Shown here: positions 468 to 16,591 of the stretch, in pieces | How the letters are laid out: each line of letters begins with the position of its first letter | How positions within the stretch are numbered: position 1 is the stretch's first letter | NCBI RefSeq assembly: GCF_022919215.1 | Contig: NZ_CP095046.1 | Span: 4,640,501 to 4,704,500, forward strand | DNA: 64,000 nt | Direction of reading: 5' to 3' | Source of the DNA: Hymenobacter cellulosilyticus | Lineage (GTDB): Bacteria; Bacteroidota; Bacteroidia; Cytophagales; Hymenobacteraceae | Program-made: the position numbers and the translations under genes | The notes under the pieces: generated by a model | Seen by the model: only the letters and a program-made list of their open reading frames with translations | The model's database searches: none | What the model was told of the DNA's origin: nothing

Positions 468-1117
468 CTACTGGGGCTTGCCGCACTCGGCGCAGAAGCG
501 CTGGCCGGGCTTGACGCTGGCCCCGCAGTCGGCGCAGAATTTCTCCTTGGTTTGGGCCGCCACGTTGGGTGTGCCGCACTCGGGGCAGAACTTCTTGTTG
601 GCGTCGAGGGTGGTTTGGCAATTATTGCACTGCACGACGGCGCCTTTGTTGAGAAAGTCCAGGTTGTTGGTGTAGTCCTGGGCGCGGGTTTTGGTGTAAA
701 TCTGCTCTTTGGCGGCCTGCCGCTGCTGGGAGGCCAGCTCCTCGTGCTCATCGGGGCACAGTCTTCGCAGAGGCCAGCCTTGTGGTTCCAGCATACGTCG
801 GGGCACACCCAGTGGCCGCAGCGGGTACATTGCTTGAAGTGCTGCTTGCCTTCTTGCACCGCTTTTTCCAGGGCCGCGTCGTGGGCCTTGCCCCCGATGG
901 CGCGCTGCACGTGGTAGGCCGCGTTGCCGGCGTCGTGGAAGTGGCCGCCAAACAGGCTGCCGGCGGCCCGCATCAGCTCCCCGGCAATGCCGATGCTGTT
1001 GGGGTGAAAGCGCGACATGTGGCCATTGCGGCATTTGTCGCAGTAAAACTTAAACTGGAAGCCTTTGTCAGTGGACAGGTCGTCGTGGTTGGAGACGAAC
1101 TGAATCAGGTTGCTCAT
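468..1117 (-). CDS. Double zinc-ribbon protein (frameshifted)
   Basis: The protein would be 216 residues after one base is restored. The N-terminal part (MSNLIQFVSNHDDLS) has Cys pairs CDKC, CTRC and CEDC. The C-terminal 70 residues carry two zinc ribbons of the CNNC...CPEC and CADC...CAEC type and end in CGKPQ. The frame is lost at 753-756, a run of four G on the plus strand. Adding one base joins CEDCAP to DEHEELASQQ. The start at 1117 is chosen because the upstream extension to 1186 has no family-like sequence. Function is unknown; such ribbons usually mediate metal-dependent protein or nucleic-acid contacts. Confidence 0.7.
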
Positions 1118-4760: not shown

Positions 4761-6158
4761 TTACGCGCCGTCCATACGCACGATTTTGGGCGTGAAGGAG
4801 CCGAGCACATCCACCAGCTCCTGCTGGCTTTGCATCACGGCGTGGATGTCCTTATAGGCCATGGGCGCCTCGTCCACTCCCCCACCCTGCAGCACCACGT
4901 CGTGGTCTCTGAGGTACTGGCGTACCTGGGCTTCACCGAGCTCCTGCTTGGCCCGGGTGCGCGACATAAGCCGGCCCGCGCCGTGGGAAGCCGAGCCCAG
5001 GGACTCGGCCACGCCCCGGCCGCGCACGATAAAGCCGGGGGCCGTCATGGAGCCGGGAATGATGCCCAGCACGCCCCGGCCGGCCGGCGTAGCGCCCTTG
5101 CGGTGCACGATAACCTCACGGCCATCGGCCATTCGTTCTTTCCAGGCGAAGTTGTGGTGGTTTTCCACTTTCGCCAACGGCCGCTCGCCCAGGGCTTTGG
5201 CCAGGCGGTGGTGAATCTGGTGGTGGCAGGCCGAGGCAAAGTCGCCGGCCAGGGTCATGGCGGCCCAGTATTCCTGGCCCAACTCGCTATCAAGGCCCAG
5301 CCAGGCTAGGTGCTTGGCCTCATTGGGCAGCTGGCAGTTTTCCATGGCCAACTTGGTGTAGTGGTTGGCAACCGAAGCGCCCAGGCCGCGGGAGCCGGAG
5401 TGGCTGAGCAGACCCACGTACTGCCCCACGGCCAAACCCATTTCGTTGGTGGGGTCGGTGATGTCGACCACGCCGAACTCGACGAAGTGGTTGCCGGAAC
5501 CCGAGGTGCCGATTTGCTCGGCGGCCGTAGCCTGCTTGTTGCGCAGGAAGGGCACGGCTTGGAAGGTGTCACTTTCCAGCACTTCGTGGCCTAGCTTCTT
5601 GCCCCGGTCGAAGCCGGTGCGGTTGCCGAAGCGGGTGTTGTCGAGCAGCAGTTTCTGCAATTCCTGCACCCGCTGGCTCAGAAACTTGGGCGGCAAAGCA
5701 AACACCGACAGCGCCATGCGGCACCCGATGTCGACGCCCACGGCGTAGGGAATCACGGCATTATCAGTAGCCAGCACGCCCCGATGGGCAGGCCGTAGCC
5801 GTGGTGGGCGTCGGGCATGAGGGCGCCGGCTACGGTCACGGGCAGCTTCATGGCCGTGTCCATCTGGTGCAGGGCCCCGGGCTCGATGTGCTCGGCCCCG
5901 TAGAGGGCGTAGGGCTTGCGGGCCACCAGCTCGATGTGGCGGGACGGGGCGGCAGCAGGGCAGCGGCCACGTGGCTCCAGTCGAGGTGGGTGGCAAACTC
6001 GCGGGTGCGGTGAGCAGGTGCTGAAGCAGGGCCAGCTGGTCGGTGAGGGAAAGTTTCTTGAGGTGCTTGCGCTGCAGTTGCGCCAGGGCAAGCCCGATGG
6101 CACGGCCTTCGGGGAAGCCAAGCTGCCGAAGGTCGTTGCCGCGTAGTTGTTGGGCCAT
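4761..6158 (-). CDS. rtcB: RtcB RNA ligase (three frameshifts)
   Basis: RtcB joins RNA 2',3'-cyclic phosphate or 3'-phosphate ends to 5'-OH ends using GTP and Mn2+. The repaired protein is 466 residues. The motifs are GVDIGCRM (metal-binding Cys), SGSGNHFVEF, LLSHSGSRGLG, VENHHNFAW, HRKGATPAG, and SHGAGRLMSR with the His that becomes guanylylated. Starting at MAQQLRGND (6158) fits the paralogue at 1-48; the open extension upstream is non-coding leader. Single bases are missing at 5779-5782, 5946-5949 and 6003-6005, all in C/G runs, between normal family segments. The gene follows the Y-RNA array and ends at a strong terminator. Linkage of RtcB with Ro60 and Y RNAs is known in other bacteria. 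Confidence 0.9.
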   Translation of the reverse strand: MAQQLRGNDLRQLGFPEGRAIGLALAQLQRKHLKKLSLTDQLALLQHLLTAPASLPPTSTGATWPLPCCRPVPPHRAGGPQALRPLRGRAHRARGPAPDGHGHEAARDRSRRPHARRPPRLRPAHRGVLATDNAVIPYAVGVDIGCRMALSVFALPPKFLSQRVQELQKLLLDNTRFGNRTGFDRGKKLGHEVLESDTFQAVPFLRNKQATAAEQIGTSGSGNHFVEFGVVDITDPTNEMGLAVGQYVGLLSHSGSRGLGASVANHYTKLAMENCQLPNEAKHLAWLGLDSELGQEYWAAMTLAGDFASACHHQIHHRLAKALGERPLAKVENHHNFAWKERMADGREVIVHRKGATPAGRGVLGIIPGSMTAPGFIVRGRGVAESLGSASHGAGRLMSRTRAKQELGEAQVRQYLRDHDVVLQGGGVDEAPMAYKDIHAVMQSQQELVDVLGSFTPKIVRMDGA

Positions 6159-6190
6159 ACAAGTGTAGTCCGAAGACGTGAAGTTGAAGG

Positions 6191-6245
6191 AAAAACGGCC
6201 GGCAGTAAGGCGGCGGCACCCACATTTCGGTGCCGCCGCCGGCCG
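6191..6245 (-). terminator. Strong hairpin with T run after the Y-RNA array
   Basis: A 12-bp perfect stem (6209-6220 with 6229-6240) is extended by CGGCC / GGCCG. On the minus strand the hairpin is followed by TTACTGCC and then GGCCGTTTTT. It stands between the last Y-RNA unit and the rtcB start at 6158, so it should end most array transcripts before rtcB. Read-through would form a long structured rtcB leader. Confidence 0.65.
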
Positions 6246-6275
6246 CGTTTTATGAATTGAAAAAGCTAGTCCGAA

Positions 6276-6365
6276 CCGGAGCAACGGGCCGGCCGCGCCA
6301 TAGTGGGAGTACTTGCGGACTACCCGACGGGACAGGTCGAAGGAGCGCGGCCGTACGGCATCCGG
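6276..6365 (-). ncRNA. Y-RNA-like unit 8 (minimal, no tRNA mimic)
   Basis: The 90-nt unit is closed by CCGGA / TCCGG. Then come the conserved 7-nt loop strand TGCCGTA opposite GCCCGTTGC, and a second perfect helix CGGCCGCGC / GCGCGGCCG. The conserved CCTTCG follows just inside the 5' strand. The interior forms a small hairpin but has no T loop or D arm. It is followed on the RNA strand by GGACTAGCTTTTT. I infer a Ro60-binding stem without the tRNA-like module. Confidence 0.65.
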
Positions 6366-6390
6366 GCCGGAAAAGCAGTTGCCAGACGGA

Positions 6391-6467
6391 GGAAACGGGT
6401 GATATGGTGGGTAGTCCGAGGGCGTATTTTTCAGAACGAAGGAATACTACCCGACGACACCGTTTCC
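6391..6467 (-). ncRNA. Y-RNA-like unit 7 (minimal, no tRNA mimic)
   Basis: The 77-nt unit is the shortest. The outer helix is GGAAACGG / CCGTTTCC, the loop strand TGTCGTC, and the inner helix GGGTAGT / ACTACCC, all perfectly paired. CCTTCG again follows inside. The 3' loop strand (ACCATATCAC) departs most from the consensus of the other units. There is no T arm; the interior is a weak GTATT / AATAC hairpin. Confidence 0.65.
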
Positions 6468-6477
6468 GGCCCGGCTC

Positions 6478-6613
6478 CGGTAGTGGGCTACAAGGCGGGC
6501 AGCCTCTATACTGTGCTCTAACCAACTGAGCTACTGCCTTACGGCAGGAAGGACTTGAACCTCCGACCCCAGCGCCCCAAGCGAAGTAAGGCTGCCCTAC
6601 AGCACCACTACCG
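6478..6613 (-). ncRNA. Y-RNA-like unit 6 with complete permuted tRNA mimic
   Basis: The outer helix is CGGTAGTGG / CCACTACCG, the loop strands TGCTGTA and GCCTTGTAGC, and the inner helix GGGCAGCCT / AGGCTGCCC, all perfect. Inside, in order, lie ACTTCG, a T arm with loop TTCAAGT (6548-6564), and an acceptor stem CTGCC / GGCAG closed by the tetraloop GTAA (6539-6542). A canonical D arm AGCTCAGTTGGTTAGAGC follows (6515-6532). The anticodon arm is replaced by the Ro60-type stem, as described for YrlA-class bacterial Y RNAs. Confidence 0.85.
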
Positions 6614-6628
6614 AAAAACGAACTGCTG

Positions 6629-6761
6629 ACCAGGACAACAAGTGGAGGGCGTTATTGCTACCGTAACCAAGGCAGCACCCGCAACCGAAGCGGCGGGGTG
6701 CGGGAGTTGAACCCGCTCTTCCTAAGAATCGCCGAAGTAACGCCTTCCGACGGCACCTGGT
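6629..6761 (-). ncRNA. Y-RNA-like unit 5 with permuted tRNA mimic
   Basis: The outer helix is ACCAGG / CCTGGT, the loop strands TGCCGTC and ACTTGTTGT, and the inner helix GGAAGGCGTTA / TAACGCCCTCC (10 of 11 pairs). The T arm GCGGG-TTCAACT-CCCGC is at 6700-6716. The acceptor-like stem is capped by TTCG (6686-6689). The D arm is atypical but paired: GCTGCC / GGTAGC around TTGGTTAC. The unit is followed by CAGCAGTTCGTTTTT. Confidence 0.8.
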
Positions 6762-6777
6762 AAACAGTAAAAACAAA

Positions 6778-6922
6778 CTCGTTGGGGCAACTAGGCGCCC
6801 AGCCACTAATCGTGCTCTGACCAGCTGAGCTACCGTGCCGCCGAAGCAGCACGAGAAGGATTCGAACCCCCGACCCGGGCATTAAAAGTGCGAAGTATGG
6901 CTAGGCTACGGCACCCAACGAG
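6778..6922 (-). ncRNA. Y-RNA-like unit 4 with complete permuted tRNA mimic
   Basis: The outer helix is a perfect 9-bp CTCGTTGGG / CCCAACGAG. The loop strands are TGCCGTA and GCCTAGTTGC. The inner helix is GCCTAGCCA / TGGCTGGGC with one G-T pair. The T arm carries loop TTCGAAT (6855-6871). The acceptor stem CGTGCTGC / GCGGCACG is closed by TTCG (6842-6845). A canonical D arm AGCTCAGCTGGTCAGAGC follows. A run TTTGTTTTT lies right after the unit. Confidence 0.85.
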
Positions 6923-6939
6923 GTATTGGTCTGCTTTGC

Positions 6940-7084
6940 TTTCGGGGCAACAGGCGGGGCGCCCTGCTGATTGATGCGTCTACATTCCGCCACTCGCAGC
7001 CGGCTGGCCCGAGGCGGGAGTTGAACCCGCACGCCTTTCGGTGTCAATTGAGAACGAAGGATTGCGCCCCTACGGCACCCGAAA
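6940..7084 (-). ncRNA. Y-RNA-like unit 3 with tRNA-Leu-like permuted mimic
   Basis: The outer helix is TTTCGGG / CCCGAAA, the loop strands TGCCGTA and GCCTGTTGC, and the inner helix GGGGCGC / GCGCCCC, all perfect. An additional hairpin CCTTCG / CGAAAGG precedes the T arm GCGGG-TTCAACT-CCCGC (7014-7030). The acceptor stem CTCG / CGAG is closed through GCC-AGCC-GGC. The D region TGGCGGAATGTAGACGC resembles that of tRNA-Leu rather than the AGCTCAG type, so units mimic different tRNAs. Confidence 0.8.
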
Positions 7085-7107
7085 AAGAACAGATACAAAT
7101 GGCCCAA

Positions 7108-7238
7108 CCGGGGTAACAAAGGGAAGCGCGGCCGAAGCCATTCTGCTCTACCAAGCTGAGCTACGTGCACGGGCAGCAGCCGGCGCAGGGCGGGACTCGA
7201 ACCCGCGACCCGAAGGAACGCTTCCCGACGACACCCGG
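7108..7238 (-). ncRNA. Y-RNA-like unit 2 with complete permuted tRNA mimic
   Basis: The outer helix is CCGGG / CCCGG, the loop strands TGTCGTC and TTTGTTAC, and the inner helix GGGAAGCG / CGCTTCCC, all perfect. The T arm is GCGGG-TTCGAGT-CCCGC (7190-7206). The acceptor-like stem is capped by TGCT (7175-7178). The canonical D arm AGCTCAGCTTGGTAGAGC is at 7145-7162. A small hairpin GGC-TTCG-GCC sits on the 3' side before the stem closes. The unit is followed by TCTGTTCTTTTT. Confidence 0.85.
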
Positions 7239-7269
7239 CGGGATAGTTTGCTTATTGGTTTCAACCTAA

Positions 7270-7405
7270 GGCAGGGGCAGCAGACGCCCGGCGAGTGTTT
7301 TCCCGGGCTTGCCGAAGCAGACCCGGCGGGAATCGAACCCGTAACCGCCGTAATATGGCGGCCTGAAAACCAGCCCGAAGTAACGCCCGGCTACGGCACC
7401 TTGCC
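7270..7405 (-). ncRNA. Y-RNA-like unit 1 (partial tRNA mimic, D arm missing)
   Basis: The first unit of the array is the least regular. The stem GCCGGGCG / CGCCGGGC has one G-G mismatch. The loop strands are TGCCGTA and GTCTGCTG, and GGCA / TGCC closes the unit outside. ACTTCG is present. The T arm CGGG-TTCGATT-CCCG is at 7327-7341, preceded by a hairpin CCGCC / GGCGG. A stem capped by TTCG (7314-7317) follows. No D arm can be drawn. Confidence 0.65.
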
Positions 7406-7509: not shown

Positions 7510-8357
7510 TCAGACGGTGTTAAGGGTGAGACTCGCCAGCTCGGCTTCAAACGCCCGGAGCACGGGGTGCGGGGGCTGGGGGTCGAAGATGGCAAAATCG
7601 AGGCGCTGGAACGAGGTGCGCCAGCCGGGCTGGGCCAGGGCTTCGGCAAACAGCCGGGCAATCTGCGCCGGGTCGTTGCCGAACACGCCGCAGCCCCAGG
7701 CCCCCAGCACCAGTGCCTCGCAGCCGTGACGGGCGGCCATGCCCAACACCTGCCGGATGCGGCGCTGCATGGTGGGCAGCAGCTCGGGCAAGAGCTCCGG
7801 GGAGTTGCGCCGTAAGGCCCCGGCATTCACGGCCGGGGAGGTAATAATGTCGACGCGGTAGGGCTCGGGGAGCCAGCGGCCGGCATCATCGAGCAGCACC
7901 GGTACGCCGGGCGAGTAGATGGCGTAGTCGCTGTAGAGGCCGTTGAGGTGGGCATTGTGCTGGTACATCTCCGGAAACAGCAGCTGGCACGGATACAGCC
8001 CCGAAGAGCGGGCCAGGCTTTCCTCCTGGGCCTGACTGCCACCCAGAAAGCCCCACCGGGGTTGCGGGCCGAAGCAAAGTTGAGCACCCCGACGCGGGAG
8101 AACTCCTTACTCAGGGCCGCAGCGGCTTCGAGCGTAGTAGCTTGGTACACGCACACTTCGGCGGGAGCACCAGCGGCGGGTCCGGGTTCCTGCCCCACCG
8201 CGGCAGCGTCCGCCGGCCGGTAGAGCAGACTGCCTTGCGCGGCAGCGTGTTGCCAGGCCCCGATGCTGACTTCAGTACCGTTTGCCGTGTGGTAGCAGCC
8301 GGTTTCCAGGGCATCGAGGGTGAGGCGGGCCAGTTGTTGACGTTGTTCGCGGTTCAT
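7510..8357 (-). CDS. TIGR02452-type PARG-like ADP-ribose glycohydrolase (frameshifted)
   Basis: The repaired protein is 282 residues. The segment VGVLNFASARNPGGGFLGGS followed by QAQEESLARSSGLYPC is the signature of the microbial PARG-like family, in which the GGG and QEE motifs contact ADP-ribose. GAWGCGVFGNDP near the C-terminus is the second ligand loop of the macrodomain fold. One base is missing at 8051-8054 (four C on the plus strand). The gene lies between Ro60 and the Y-RNA array on the same strand. ADP-ribose on proteins or on RNA ends is a possible substrate; that link is inferred only from position. Confidence 0.8.
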
Positions 8358-8485: not shown

Positions 8486-10007
8486 CTACAGGTCTATTTT
8501 TTCAATTTCGGTCAGGGCCGAGCCGCCGTTTTCCAGGGCCTGCAGCACGTCAAACACCTTGTCCGACCAGCCGGCAATCAGCGCTACGCCGTGGCCTTCG
8601 CGCACTTCGAGGGGCGCCGAGCCGTGGCCGGCCAGGTCGAAGAGGTAGAGCCGGGCCTGGGGAGCCACTGTGCGGCGGTAGTCTAGCCAGGCCTGGGCCA
8701 GGGTGCCACCGTCGCCGGTGCTGTTCCAGAGCTGGCAGTCGGTGAAAATCATCACCTTATCCACCACCTCGCGGCGCTGCAGCAAGTCCTGCACGACCAG
8801 GTGGCCGTTGGTGCTGTAACCTACTTCGCCTTCGCGGCGGTAGAACTCCTGCACGTTTTGCAGGGTCCGGCCCCGGGCAGGCTCAGGCGCTTCCAGGTGT
8901 CGCCGAACATGCCGGTGACTACGTAACTGCAACGGCTCTGCAGGAGCATGCCCAGCACCAGGCCCACGTCGTAGAGCAGCACTTTGCTGCGGGCCGACAC
9001 CGGCTGCTGCATCGAGCCCGACACGTCGCAGGCCACCACCACGCGGGTGCTGGTATCGAAGCCGCGCAGGTTGGCTACGCTGTGCGCAATGGCCGTTTCT
9101 AGGGCTTCTAGTACCAGGGCCACGTAGCCCGACTTCAAAACCAGCACCTCGCGGTAGGCGGCCAGAAAGCGGAAAGGCAGCTGCTTGGCCCGGGCCACGG
9201 CCTGCTCATTGCTCAGCGTAGCGCACACCTTCTCTACTGCCTGAGCCGACACGTCGGCTTCGAGGATGTTGCGCAGGTTGCGCAGCAAGGCCATGTAGCC
9301 CAGCTTGCCGCTGGTAATCAGGGTTTCCCACACGGTGCGAAAAGCTGCCGCGCGCTCCTCCGGCGAGGCAAAGGCTTGCTGACCCACTGCCGACAGCTCA
9401 GTTTCCCAGGTGTAGGGCGTGGGCAGCGTGTCGTGCACGAGCTGGTCGAACAAGGCCTGCTGCTCAGCGTCCCGGGCGTGGGGTGCACCAAGAACAGGGC
9501 GTCGCGCAGGCGCACCTGCCCGGCCCGGTCGTACTTGGCCAGCTGGTAGCCATCGAAACGGTTGAAGCTCAGGGCCAGGCCTTTCTGCACCTGCTTGGAG
9601 AGGCGGTTGAGGGTTTTCACCCCTTCCCGCTCCTTGGCTCGGGCGTAGTAAGCCAGCAGCTCGGTAATTTCGTCGGCGCGCTGCACCACCCGGGCTACCA
9701 GGCGGCTTACCAGGCTGTCGCCGCGGTGCAGGCGGGCCAGCTCCACGGTCAGGACCAAGGGCACGGTGCGCAGGTAGAGCTGCTCACGGGCATACACCGC
9801 CAGCCGGGCCACAAACTCGGGGTCGTTGCGGGCCACCAGCTCGCGCAGGCGCTGCAGGCGGGTGTCGGCTTTTTCGTAGAACTGGTCGCTCAGGGCGGCC
9901 GTGGCTACGGCCGCGTACAGCTCCAGCTGGGGCGTAAGCGTATAAGCAGCCGCCCCTTCGTGGTTGAGGACGGTTTTGGCTTTGCGGAAGGGTAGATTGA
10001 AGCGCAT
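8486..10007 (-). CDS. rsr: Ro60 / Rsr orthologue: TROVE domain plus vWA (two frameshifts)
   Basis: The repaired protein is 507 residues, the usual length. The TROVE part is recognised by PEFVARLAVYAREQLYLRTV, RADEITELLAYYA, and VHPHARDAEQQALFDQLV. The C-terminal von Willebrand A domain has the MIDAS motif DVSGSM. Ro60 forms a ring that binds misfolded RNA ends in its hole and Y RNAs on its surface; in bacteria Y RNA also tethers it to other proteins such as PNPase. Bases are missing at 9480-9483 and at 8871-8877, both in G/C runs. Downstream on the same strand lie the PARG-like gene, eight Y-RNA units and rtcB. Confidence 0.9.
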
Positions 10008-10065: not shown

Positions 10066-11367
10066 TTAGTTGAGCAAGTGCTTGGGCACCAGCAGGCGGT
10101 TATCGGCGGCCCAGCGCTGAATCCAGGCGCCTTCCTCATCGTTGGGGCGGCGGTTGAACAGGCCCCGGGCTTGCACCACGGTGCGGTTGGCCTGCACTTC
10201 CAGCGTCACGGTACGGGTGCCGTTGAGCGATAAGGAGAAGATGGCGCTGCGCCCCCGCCGGCAGGAGTCCAGATACGACGCCACGCAGTGCCGCAACGTG
10301 CGGCCTTCGTGGATCAGCTCCCCGTAGGTGCGCAGCTGGGTGATGCGCACCGGGCACTTGCCGCCCCCGGAAAAGTCAGGCACAGGCAAGGGCACCCAGG
10401 TAGTAGCCAGCGTCAGGCTGGCTTCGGGCTGCCGGTGCGGGGCCCGCACGAGCTGGCGGTGCCACTGCGCCGTTTGCGTCAGTACACTCGCCATGGAGCG
10501 GCCTTTAAGCGAGAAGCCCGGTTGGGCCGGCTCGTCGCCGATGCCCACCGCGCGCTTCTGGTGAATCCAGTCGCAGACGGGCCCCAGCTGGTAGGGGTCG
10601 ACCATGGGAGCGCCGGCAAAGAAGTCGACTACCCGCAGCCAGAACTCATCGTCGCGGCCCAGGTGGCGGCCCAGGCGGGAGTCGAGCACCGGGCCCAGCC
10701 AGTGCAGCTGGTCGCGGCTGGCCAGCTGGGCGTAGCGCAGGGCCTGCAGAAACGTGTAGCCCGCCGGGACCAGGCGCAAATGGTGCTCGATCTTGCGAGT
10801 GAGCGGCACCGGCAGCCCCGCAAATGTGCGCAGGGCCTCTCCCTGACCCAAATGCACCGTCAGGCTGGCAATATCCAGCCCGTCTTGCAGGCGGCCGGCC
10901 GTCCAGGAGCTAATCACCCAGGCCGGCACGTCGCCGTACTGGTCGAAAAGGTGGCGCACCAGGCTTTCCAGCTGCCGAAATGGGTTGCGGCTCTGGGGTT
11001 GCCAGTCGGCCAACTCCCGGCAGCGCCGCGGCAAGCACCGGGCCACGGCGGCCAGGGCCGGGGCCAGCTCAGCCCGCCAGAGCAGTTCGGTGCGCTTGTC
11101 GGCCAGGCCGCGCAGCAGTCCGGCGCACTGACTGCGCTGCGGGTCTTTTTGTTCGAGAATACAGTGACGGTAAAACTCCGTCAGCGGGGAATTTTCGCCC
11201 AGGTGGGCATTGATTACGGGTAGCGGACCAGCCAGCGAGAAGAGGTAGTCGACTTGCTGTCGGAGTGGCCAGCGGCGCCAGTCGAGACGCCGGGCGGCGG
11301 AGAGAACTATGCGGGCTTGCTGGGCTTCCCAGACCGCATGGGGGACGGGTTTGTGACGGTTAGACAT
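10066..11367 (-). CDS. PcfJ-like domain protein
   Basis: The 433-residue protein is intact. The C-terminal third contains ELIHEGRTLRHCVASYLDSC and a sequence like GTRTVTLEV followed by VQARGLFNRRPNDEEG, which is the PcfJ-like domain first noted in conjugative plasmids. The N-terminal two thirds is helical and unrecognised. Molecular function of the domain is unknown. It is the first gene of the minus-strand run that leads into Ro60 (59-bp gap), so it may belong to the Ro60 module. Confidence 0.7.
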   Translation of the reverse strand: MSNRHKPVPHAVWEAQQARIVLSAARRLDWRRWPLRQQVDYLFSLAGPLPVINAHLGENSPLTEFYRHCILEQKDPQRSQCAGLLRGLADKRTELLWRAELAPALAAVARCLPRRCRELADWQPQSRNPFRQLESLVRHLFDQYGDVPAWVISSWTAGRLQDGLDIASLTVHLGQGEALRTFAGLPVPLTRKIEHHLRLVPAGYTFLQALRYAQLASRDQLHWLGPVLDSRLGRHLGRDDEFWLRVVDFFAGAPMVDPYQLGPVCDWIHQKRAVGIGDEPAQPGFSLKGRSMASVLTQTAQWHRQLVRAPHRQPEASLTLATTWVPLPVPDFSGGGKCPVRITQLRTYGELIHEGRTLRHCVASYLDSCRRGRSAIFSLSLNGTRTVTLEVQANRTVVQARGLFNRRPNDEEGAWIQRWAADNRLLVPKHLLN

Positions 11368-11608
11368 CGGGCTGAATTCCCTGCGCGAGGGTGGTTACCG
11401 ATTGAAAGATCAGCCGAAGTTGTGGCTGGTATAGCAGGCGTAGCGAGTAGAATCCGGAAGCTTTCGTACATGACTTAATTGTTAAAAGAGTGATGAAAAT
11501 GAATTCACGGAAGCCGTAAATTCGACGCAGTATTTAAATTAATTAGAACCTAAAAGGCATACCTCTTCCACGCCGCTGGAAATTATTTTTCAGCGAATAA
11601 ATAATATG

Positions 11609-11645
11609 AAAAAGGCCCGGTTTCTGGGAGAAGCCGGGCCTTTTT
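11609..11645. terminator. Bidirectional hairpin terminator
   Basis: AAAAAGGCCCGG and CCGGGCCTTTTT pair around a 13-nt loop, giving a T run on both strands. No gene end lies close on either side; the nearest genes are the PcfJ-like start at 11367 and the small ORF at 11868. Between 11368 and 11608 nothing else is recognised. Confidence 0.65.
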
Positions 11646-11800
11646 CACGAATCAGTCACGTAGTATCTACCTACGAGAATCGTTCGATAAAAAATCCCGG
11701 CCGTACCAATTCCACTCCCGGCGTAAGGGCCGTTTGGACTGGGGCTGGTTGAGGAAGCAATCCGCTGACAGATGCATGGCCGAAGAGCGTAAAGGGGGTG

Positions 11801-14878: not shown

Positions 14879-15755
14879 CTACTCGGGCTGCAGAAACTCT
14901 ATTGCCTGCTGAATGACGGCTGGGTCGCGCATGATGCGGTTGTGGCCCAGACCGGTGGTGGGACGGAAGTCCAGGCCGGGCCAGTTGCGGGCTATGTCTT
15001 CCGCTTCACTAAAGGGTATGGTTTCGTCGGCGCGGTCGTGCAGCAGCAAGGCCCGCTCGGCCGGTACCTGCTGGCCCACCTGGGTCAGGCTGTAGCTTTC
15101 GGAGCTGCGCCCGTGCCGGGCTTCGGCAAACTCCACCATCCGGGCCGCCACCTTGGCCGGCAGGTGGAGCAGGTCGGCAAAGCGCTGAAACACGGCCGGC
15201 GTACTGCCCGGCACGCTCAGCAGCATCAGCCGCGGCAACCGTCCTTCTCCATTAAACTGCACCGGCAGCCCCGCCGTGGCGGCAGCCCCAAAGGAGTGCG
15301 CCACAACGCCCCAAATCGGCCCGGCCTGGTCGGCAACGGCCTGGATGGCGGCCCCGAACATGGGCAGCGTCGTGCGCCGGCCGGTGGACGCGCCGTGGGC
15401 GGGTCCGTCGAAAGCCACCACCCGGTAGCCTGCTGCCACCAAACCCTGCGCAAACGCCCCCAAAAGCTGGCCCGGTGCTCCCAGCCGTGCACCAGCAGCA
15501 CGGTCCGTGCCCCTGCGGGTTCCATTCGTAGGCGACCAGCTGGCCTTGGCCAAACGGCACCTCATACCGCCGGGCCCCGGCCAGTGCGGCGGCTTCCCAG
15601 GCTTTTACCGGCAGCCGGCGGGGCGTGGTAAACAGCCGCCAGGCCGACTGAAAAGCAACCGTGGTGGAGAAGGCCGCCAGCAGCCGAAACTTCAGGCGCA
15701 GCAGCTTCAGAACGGGCGGCACTGCCGGCTGAGCGGACGTGGTGGTTGGAGTCAT
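14879..15755 (-). CDS. Alpha/beta hydrolase (two frameshifts)
   Basis: The repaired protein is 292 residues. Motifs in order are a membrane-proximal N-terminus, TVLLVHGW (oxyanion-hole HG), YRVVAFDGPAHGAS, VVAHSFGAAA (nucleophile Ser in HSFGA, a variant of GxSxG), LLLHDRADETIPF (Asp) and TTGLGHNRIM (His). A full triad is therefore present. Bases are missing at 15510-15513 (C run) and 15462-15465 (A run). Substrate is unknown; the length and hydrophobic N-terminus recall lipases or esterases of membrane-linked type. Confidence 0.75.
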
Positions 15756-15800: not shown

Positions 15801-16591
15801 TTAGTCTTCCTGTTCACTGAGGCGGGTTAGCAACTCTTCCACCTGCCGCTCCAGGCGTGTGAGGCGTTCTTCCATCGTAGATGGTGGCCGCAAATGGGTG
15901 GTAAACACGGCTTTCACTTCCCAGATTTCCAGGGCCTGCTCCAGGGCGAATTCCTCGGAGCCGTAGTCAGGGTTGTCGGCCCGCAGCCGCAGGTGAGTAG
16001 CCGAGATTCGCTCGGCCAGGCGGCGCACCAGCAGCTTGCTTTGGGTTACGAAGGCGTAAATACGCTGCACCCGCAGGTTGGGCGCGGCTAAGTCTACGCG
16101 GCGGCACAGAATTACGTCCTGATGGCGCAGGCCCTGCTGCTGATGCTGCATTTCGGCGCCTACTATTTCAAATGCCCGGGTAGCCGGGCCCAGCTGGTGG
16201 GGAAACGTAAGCGGGGCAGCGCGTCGAGAAAAGCGGCGCTGTGGTGCTGCACAATATATTCGAGCAGGCGGGCGGCGGGTACAAAAGGGGTTACGTTGGC
16301 CTGCTGGTCGGCGCTGGCCGTGGGCACGGCCGCTGGGGCGGGAGCCGCATCCTTCTGAAAAATATCAAAGTGGTAGAGCTCATTTACCGTCAGCTCTTTT
16401 GTAAGTAGCAGGTCAACGGACAAGCCAAAATGCTGAGCAATCTGAATTAGTGTCTCCATTTTGGGCTCGGACCGGCCTTCTTCATACGCCCCTACACTGG
16501 GCCGGGCCAGGCCGAATAATTCCGCAAAAGCCGCCTGACTCAGCTTTTTAACCGTTCTGATCTTGCGGATGTTCTTGCCAACGTAGGACAT
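15801..16591 (-). CDS. XRE regulator with S24/LexA-like C-terminal domain (frameshifted)
   Basis: The repaired protein is 263 residues. The N-terminal helix-turn-helix is KNIRKIRTVKKLSQAAFAEL with LARPSVGAYEEGRSEPKMET. After a Pro/Ala linker the C-terminal part FEIVGAEM, QDVILCRRVD, IYAFVTQSKLLVRRL and LRLRADNPDY has the layout of S24 (phage repressor/LexA) domains. The last 30 residues form a coiled coil. One base is missing at 16199-16202. The usual Ser-Lys dyad could not be placed with confidence. A CTCAAAG dyad lies just upstream. Confidence 0.75.

Follow-up and report, generated by a model that had tools for sequence, protein, structure and literature searches.

A tandem array of eight candidate Y RNAs, many with tRNA-like modules, between Ro60/PARG-like genes and rtcB in Hymenobacter cellulosilyticus, and its counterparts in related genomes

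Known Y RNAs gate Ro60. To our knowledge the role of bacterial Y RNAs beyond gating or tethering Ro60, and the reason for their mimicry of tRNA, are unsettled. In the Rfam family YrlA (RF02553), which takes in Salmonella YrlA and the Deinococcus Y RNA, the RNA adjoins Ro60 and has a stem with an internal loop, and the family alignment runs in the order T arm, capped acceptor and D arm, the T arm lying about 4 nt from the stem. The Salmonella operon rsr-yrlBA-rtcBA places Ro60, Y RNAs and RtcB next to each other, and a Y RNA tethers Ro60 to PNPase (PMC7790460); the same paper reports that Salmonella YrlA is uncut by tRNA nuclease and that cleavage of tRNAs yielded no detected fragments of YrlA, and suggests that the tRNA-like domain of YrlA is a competitive inhibitor. 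Two other papers describe how tRNA fragments activate the Salmonella operon (PMC8394870) and how a TROVE protein, with a tRNA-like partner, serves as a platform for RNA repair (PMC7824862).

The locus described here lies in a 64-kb window of the Hymenobacter cellulosilyticus genome (the whole stretch of DNA analysed, 64,000 nt, to which all coordinates refer unless a locus is named), where eight structured units follow one another in tandem and in one direction on the minus strand from 7405 to 6276. The array sits between a PARG-like gene (7510..8357, minus strand; microbial PARG, with Pfam PARG_cat_microb on one of its two pieces) and the gene for the RNA ligase RtcB (4761..6158, minus strand; Pfam RtcB), and shares their direction and that of the Ro60 gene (8486..10007, minus strand; Pfam TROVE on two of its three pieces), upstream of which is a PcfJ-like gene (10066..11367, minus strand). 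A terminator-like GC-rich hairpin followed by UUUUU lies after the last unit and before rtcB (6188..6250, minus strand; -39.7 kcal/mol, z -4.24), and is absent from the output of a simple terminator scan. Between 6100 and 8000 a scan for sigma-70-like promoters, which is ill-suited to Bacteroidota, gave a single site, on the opposite strand.

All eight units have the same anatomy: the outer stem is followed by a bulged U and two pairs, then by an asymmetric loop, beyond which come a second helix, 7-8 bp long (with one mismatch in U5), and the tail UMCUUCG. The internal loop has YGUM on its 5' side; its 3' side is longer and ends in GUUG or a variant of it. A descriptor, a scoring pattern written from features of the eight units themselves, found the paired ends and the conserved asymmetric internal loop in all eight with scores of 58.6-67.8, the best score elsewhere on either strand of the window being 51.5; since the descriptor was derived from these units, it is the relatives that provide the independent test. 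The bounds of U1 to U8 given below were drawn by eye, and the linkers, measured with other bounds, are 10-23 nt long. A T arm is present in six of the eight units, and the tRNA match is well above shuffles in five of these and weak in U5.

By this architecture the units are predicted to be bacterial Y RNAs of the YrlA kind. They share with YrlA the position beside Ro60, a stem interrupted by an internal loop, and a T arm followed by a capped acceptor and then a D arm, and with the Y RNA that lies beside TROVE in Deinococcus gobiensis they have in common GGGUG in the 5' arm, a UUCCUUC tail and a 3' GCCUGUU.CCCC; it is on these shared arms that we base the assignment. Architecture and position thus agree with a sequence-only reading of this DNA, which had proposed Y RNA-like units between Ro60/PARG-like genes and rtcB, eight of them on the minus strand, each with two helices around a fixed asymmetric loop and all in the direction of Ro60 and RtcB. 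Unlike YrlA the locus has eight units, all below the Rfam cut-off, and some of its modules carry an anticodon-like arm or a variable arm of Leu or Ser type. Against a gathering threshold of 69 bits U2 scores 39, U6 37.6 and U4 26, the other five units have no YrlA match up to an E value of 10, and nothing in the window reaches gathering. The Rfam model at its cut-off also misses the units in the seven related loci tried; the D. gobiensis Y RNA beside TROVE is itself below the threshold at 49.6 bits, which indicates that the cut-off is narrow. The Deinococcus locus, on plasmid P2, has one Y RNA by Rfam, the YrlA-like one, and by eye a second unit that is short, resembles a Y RNA and lies upstream of the first (L415:2729-2796). 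The arrangement resembles that in Salmonella in the adjacency of Ro60, Y RNAs and RtcB (PMC7790460) and differs from it in the PARG- and PcfJ-like genes of some loci and in arrays of 3-10 units.

The flanking genes are those that the sequence-only reading had named, Ro60, PARG-like and RtcB, with the correction that the first two are each split between frames. Ro60 occupies three reading frames, its pieces sharing 86-94% identity with an intact relative of 508 aa. The PARG-like gene is spread over two when compared with a relative; an intact homologue of this gene (L250:10799-11650) contains the whole domain. A relative's RtcB of 466 aa aligns to rtcB in one frame with 81% identity; by eye, a short stretch near the start of rtcB seems out of frame. 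Three more two-frame splits relative to homologues occur in the first 20 kb of the window (471-1117, 14888-15755 and 15804-16591), and since these nearby places are split too, the simplest cause of the splits in Ro60 and the PARG-like gene is assembly error, gene decay being the explanation we do not prefer. The completeness of the assembly is 95.5%, that of most relatives 99-100%.

Six of the units, all on the minus strand, carry modules that resemble tRNAs to differing degrees. Each module was aligned to the 51 distinct tRNAs that ARAGORN predicts around the 44 tRNA places of the genome, with 30 shuffles per module. U1 (7270..7405; descriptor 61.9) has a tRNA-Asp-like module in the normal, unpermuted order, with by eye a 5-bp stem and a 7-nt loop AUAUUAC; its best match is Asp-GTC at 51.5, the next isotype reaching 35.5 and the shuffles at most 36.5. 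U2 (7108..7238; class J, 63.9) has a permuted tRNA-like module with no anticodon-like arm ahead of the T arm, is the nearest of the eight to Rfam YrlA and matches Gly-TCC at 57.0 with Asp close behind at 56.5 (shuffles at most 40.5). The permuted tRNA-Leu-like module of U3 (6942..7083; class M, 65.8) has a variable arm and a D arm of Leu type and scores 62.0 with Leu-CAA, against 35.0 for the next isotype and a shuffle maximum of 33.5. In U4 (6779..6922; class A, 67.8), whose module is also permuted, a short hairpin has the 7-nt loop CUUUUAA, identical to that of the genome's own tRNA-Lys(UUU), and the best match is Lys-TTT at 60.0, followed by Gly at 57.5 (shuffles at most 32.5). U5 (6629..6761; 61.8), which like U1 is unclassed, has a T arm plus hairpins and a weak resemblance to tRNA, its score of 40.0 with Asp being above its own shuffles (at most 34.5) and under the genus-wide shuffle maximum of 43.5. 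U6 (6478..6613; class D, 64.1) has a permuted module with a Pro-like loop CUUGGGG and matches Met-CAT at 58.0 and Phe at 52.5 (shuffles at most 30.5). It is the site of the only ARAGORN tRNA call in the window, which reads part of the unit as tRNA-Pro (6539-6615) and where Rfam tRNA gives 21 bits against a cut-off of 29; the anticodon Pro(GGG) of that call was rejected, as the orthologous frame gives CUUGGGG with the triplet UGG and only two closing pairs. The last two units, U7 (6391..6467; class Q, 58.6) and U8 (6276..6365; class N, 64.2), are short and have no tRNA-like module, and their tRNA scores, 15.0 and 21.5, are inside the shuffle range. U8 has the loop GACCUGUCNCGUC in common with class B, which is the last or near-last unit in relatives.

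The best alignments of U2, U3, U4 and U6 cross the joined tRNA ends, that is they are in permuted order, and each is above all 30 of its shuffles; none of the four modules forms a linear cloverleaf with a free acceptor end. Algae and archaea have permuted tRNA genes, in which the 3' part comes ahead of the 5' part, as it does here; the modules differ from these in that short loops cap the acceptor strands and a stem of Ro60 type is inserted. Throughout the genus 281 of 498 units score at least 42 (95% of shuffles are below 36, with the maximum at 43.5), and 219 of the 281 reach their score only in permuted order. In sequence, many modules are look-alikes of tRNA in circularly permuted order. 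The differing modules proposed earlier are present, and they match different tRNAs, a likeness that the sequence-only reading had not pointed out.

How far a module can be assigned to one tRNA isotype depends on its class. Leu is the best isotype in all 15 units of class H, all ten of class M and all six of class S, and Ser in all six of class T, with a median margin of 25-28 over the next isotype in these Leu and Ser classes (in class S five of six lead by at least 6 points), and D and variable arms of Leu type are visible in an alignment of 31 units. The next isotype is 0.5 points behind in U2, 2.5 in U4 and 5.5 in U6, and the best isotype in class A is Lys in 29 units, Thr in 26, Gly in 10 and others in the rest, with a median margin of 4.5. 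Assigning an isotype to every module was consequently rejected, since a clear lead over the next one is confined to the Leu classes, the Ser class T and U1.

At a fixed place before the T arm, 78 of 85 units of class A carry an anticodon-like arm formed by a 3-bp stem and a loop of 7 nt. These 78 loops have Y32 in 77 cases, U33 in 73 and R37 in 76, and the triplet is one for Lys in 46, the remaining 32 sharing 14 other triplets. In class D a 7-nt loop closed by two pairs occurs in 21 of 32 units, 15 of which have a Pro triplet, and is missing from the other 11. When no fixed place is required, the 347 T-armed units have 93 hairpins with 7-nt loops against 43.8 in shuffles and 103 with 5-nt loops against 75.2; the 7-nt loop is not the commonest, and the claim of an anticodon arm therefore rests on class A.

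Comparable arrays are found beside Ro60 in most of the relatives. TROVE is present in 84 of 120 genomes of the genus, and up to 16 kb around Ro60 was taken from 83 other genomes, together with one second copy, to give 84 loci. In 82 of these there are 3-10 units (score at least 55) in the direction of Ro60, a count that includes two matches more than 3 kb away from the array that are likely chance. The two loci without units are L138, at a contig end, in whose genome a different contig (L252) carries four units, and L139, a second Ro60 copy; L139 and L251 (G029:C16) are both second Ro60 copies without Y RNA units nearby. Among other genera of the order 54 of 56 loci hold one to ten units; this set covers 54 of 55 Ro60-positive non-genus genomes and leaves out G294 as well as the second copies that G157 and G210 carry. 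Antisense matches of at least 55 number two among the 140 genus and order loci. At least two units (score at least 54) were found in 77 of 80 named Ro60 loci, with two antisense matches in total; Hymenobacter and its close relatives account for 36 of the 80, many of them identical to genomes of the genus set, and without the Hymenobacter group the figure is 41 of 44. Viral Ro60 loci have one to four units in 38 of 80 cases, none antisense; the descriptor misses the Deinococcus units, so that unit counts outside the Bacteroidota are not trustworthy.

Searching relatives near their TROVE genes, as the sequence-only reading had recommended, recovered the units. That reading had proposed that the array would be an expanded and undescribed form, against one or two Y RNAs as the usual number; in the relatives 3-10 units are typical of the genus, and two or more are present in nearly all the named loci. 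An isolated expansion to eight units is not supported by these comparisons. What would be new is the conserved, tRNA-diverse array, several Y RNAs per bacterial locus being already known; Chen et al. reportedly described in 2014 bacteria in which more than one Y RNA lies near Ro60. Neither Y RNA arrays nor Y RNAs specific to a type of tRNA appear among the titles and abstract openings of the literature matches listed.

Among 85 genus loci homologues of the PcfJ-like gene are found in 43, of the PARG-like gene in 33 and of RtcB in 82, RtcB being every time last, in the direction of Ro60, and closing the array; in the order set RtcB was detected in 15 of 56 loci. Some Bacteroidota relatives also have tRNA genes predicted by ARAGORN, up to 17 of them, beside or between the Y units on the strand of Ro60. 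Four or more such genes occur in seven of the 56 order loci (L150, L151, L157, L166, L169, L177 and L189) and in ten of the 44 named loci (L288, L295, L306, L313, L317, L322, L325, L326, L330 and L331), the two sets overlapping, and in L306 ten of the 11 are also above the Rfam tRNA cut-off. No cluster of this kind was seen in the 41 genus loci scanned, nor in locus L250 of genome G043.

The units of the genus fall into orthologous classes. After six of 504 units were dropped (module over 130 nt or on the minority strand), each of the remaining 498 has a better match in another genome than within its own array; as there are far more foreign units than own-array units, a stricter measure takes the median of the best matches in other loci, which for 87% of the units exceeds the score of the best paralogue. 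Clustering gave classes A to W, each with at least five members, and left 103 units unclassed. Written as class strings the window reads.JMA.DQN, and three relatives read JMA.DQN (L063), JMADQN (L068) and.JMA.D.N (L125). Class A is present in 77 of 83 unit-bearing loci. Across loci the order of shared class pairs is concordant in 4194 cases and discordant in 100, 95 of which are a single swap of B and C. The units of an array are thus best described, on these comparisons, as orthologous classes in a fixed order rather than as copies of each other.

Within classes the predicted pairing is accompanied by covariation, the absence of which in relatives had been named beforehand as the finding that would tell against the units. 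The class A alignment (orthologues of U4; 77 sequences, 38 pairs) has 95.8% of its cells paired against 81.8% in shuffles, and a covariation of 0.450 that falls to 0.179 on shuffling and to 0.142 or less when slid. Changes on both sides occur in 24 of the 38 pairs of class A, in 16 of 38 in class D (orthologues of U6; 32 sequences) and in 11 of 23 in class B (37 sequences), the class alignments having been built on sequence. Helix 1 of class A has such compensatory changes in seven of ten pairs and helix 2 in six of seven, figures that lean upward because rows were chosen by a descriptor which rewards these two Ro60-side helices. The T-arm, acceptor-like and D-arm helices are outside the descriptor, and in class A eight of the nine pairs of the acceptor-like helix are changed on both sides. 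The fold energies of the single sequences compared with shuffles are unremarkable for U1 (z -0.78), U2 (-0.89), U3 (+0.74) and U8 (-0.59), and beat most shuffles for U4 (-2.53), U5 (-1.77), U6 (-3.60) and U7 (-2.68).

Strong matches to the class A model, R1, track the presence of Ro60 across the 120 genomes. R1 has a best E value of at most 4.9e-21 in all 84 Ro60-positive genomes of the genus, 77 of which supplied rows to the model, so that their match is built in; the seven without rows (G002, G009, G032, G047, G077, G090 and G110) match it at 4.9e-21 or better. Among the 36 Ro60-negative genomes four have no match and 30 weak matches only (best 2.7e-9); in the two of these genomes that were inspected, the best matches cover model positions 34-116, the tRNA-like part. 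Stronger matches are found in G043 (6.7e-30) and G027 (1.9e-11), where a protein search showed that only the two ends of the Ro60 gene are left (L250 in G043; L241, G027:C30). Four Y units are kept in G043 and two in G027, with rtcB in both and PARG- and PcfJ-like genes also in G043; as these genomes keep Y units without an intact Ro60, it is possible that the units have a Ro60-free role there, or that Ro60 was recently lost.

The function that we consider probable, on grounds of sequence comparison, is that of a Ro60-bound array of tRNA-mimicking Y RNAs that would serve tRNA quality control and repair together with RtcB. The eight units would be transcribed together and cut apart in their short linkers, and the stem common to all would likely dock on Ro60, each Y RNA occupying it. 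The short U7 and U8 may mainly gate Ro60, and the units with modules may tether or divert enzymes that recognise tRNA, be it a nuclease such as PNPase or enzymes that modify or cut tRNAs. Ro60, RtcB and the PARG-like enzyme would thereby serve the quality control and repair of damaged tRNAs, with the module-bearing units as stand-ins for tRNAs when tRNAs are damaged. Evidence that counts against this comes from Salmonella, where YrlA was uncut by tRNA nuclease (PMC7790460). The partial recognition by ARAGORN and Rfam and the weak folding of four units might suggest that the GC-rich gap holds nothing but degenerate tRNA genes or inverted repeats that arose by chance; the covariation in 77 orthologues, which collapses on sliding, and that in class D lead us to reject it as extremely improbable, and the strong matches that track Ro60, and a direction that is that of Ro60 but for two antisense matches in 140 loci, also speak against it.

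A simpler role for real Y RNAs would be that they only gate or scaffold Ro60, their likeness to tRNA being an inherited scaffold shape and their number a matter of dosage. The stem core, loop and tail conserved in every unit, the two of eight units that lack a module and the gating known for other Y RNAs would suit this. By the measures of orthology given above the units are not recent copies; their modules show conservation of class and order and retain the variable and D arms of Leu type as well as the rules of an anticodon loop, and we regard such a role as rather unlikely. It is conceivable, if doubtful, that the modules are decoys: anticodon nucleases, or other effectors with which phages or competitors target tRNAs, would be caught by them and real tRNAs spared, with RtcB mending the tRNAs that are cut. 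Anticodon-like loops that keep U33 and R37 while the triplet varies, the Leu, Ser, Lys-like and Pro-like types of module, the tRNA clusters at related loci and the competitive inhibition suggested for the tRNA-like domain of YrlA (PMC7790460) would all fit decoys. The same paper reports no YrlA fragments when tRNAs were cut, the nuclease partner is putative, many modules are without an anticodon-like loop, and the PADLOC defence library gave no match for the four proteins of the locus, the sequences of which were taken from relatives. More tentatively than the quality-control and repair function that we prefer, one may imagine that Hymenobacter and its relatives keep a Ro60-held panel of mimics of Leu, Ser, Lys, Pro and Asp type as a shield against tRNA damage, in fixed order beside an RNA ligase and some with intact anticodon loops; if so, the mimics would draw tRNA-cutting attackers and RtcB would mend what gets hit. 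With up to ten distinct, ordered and conserved units per locus, the question of why Y RNAs mimic tRNA becomes testable class by class.

Two further features of the locus may be mentioned. The closest solved relatives of Hymenobacter Ro60 are two TROVE-domain proteins in the PDB (9l5y and 9kop; E 1.4e-27). At 11569-11666 there is a GC-rich hairpin flanked by runs of A and U, with weak matches to Rfam leader families on both strands, which is perhaps a bidirectional terminator.
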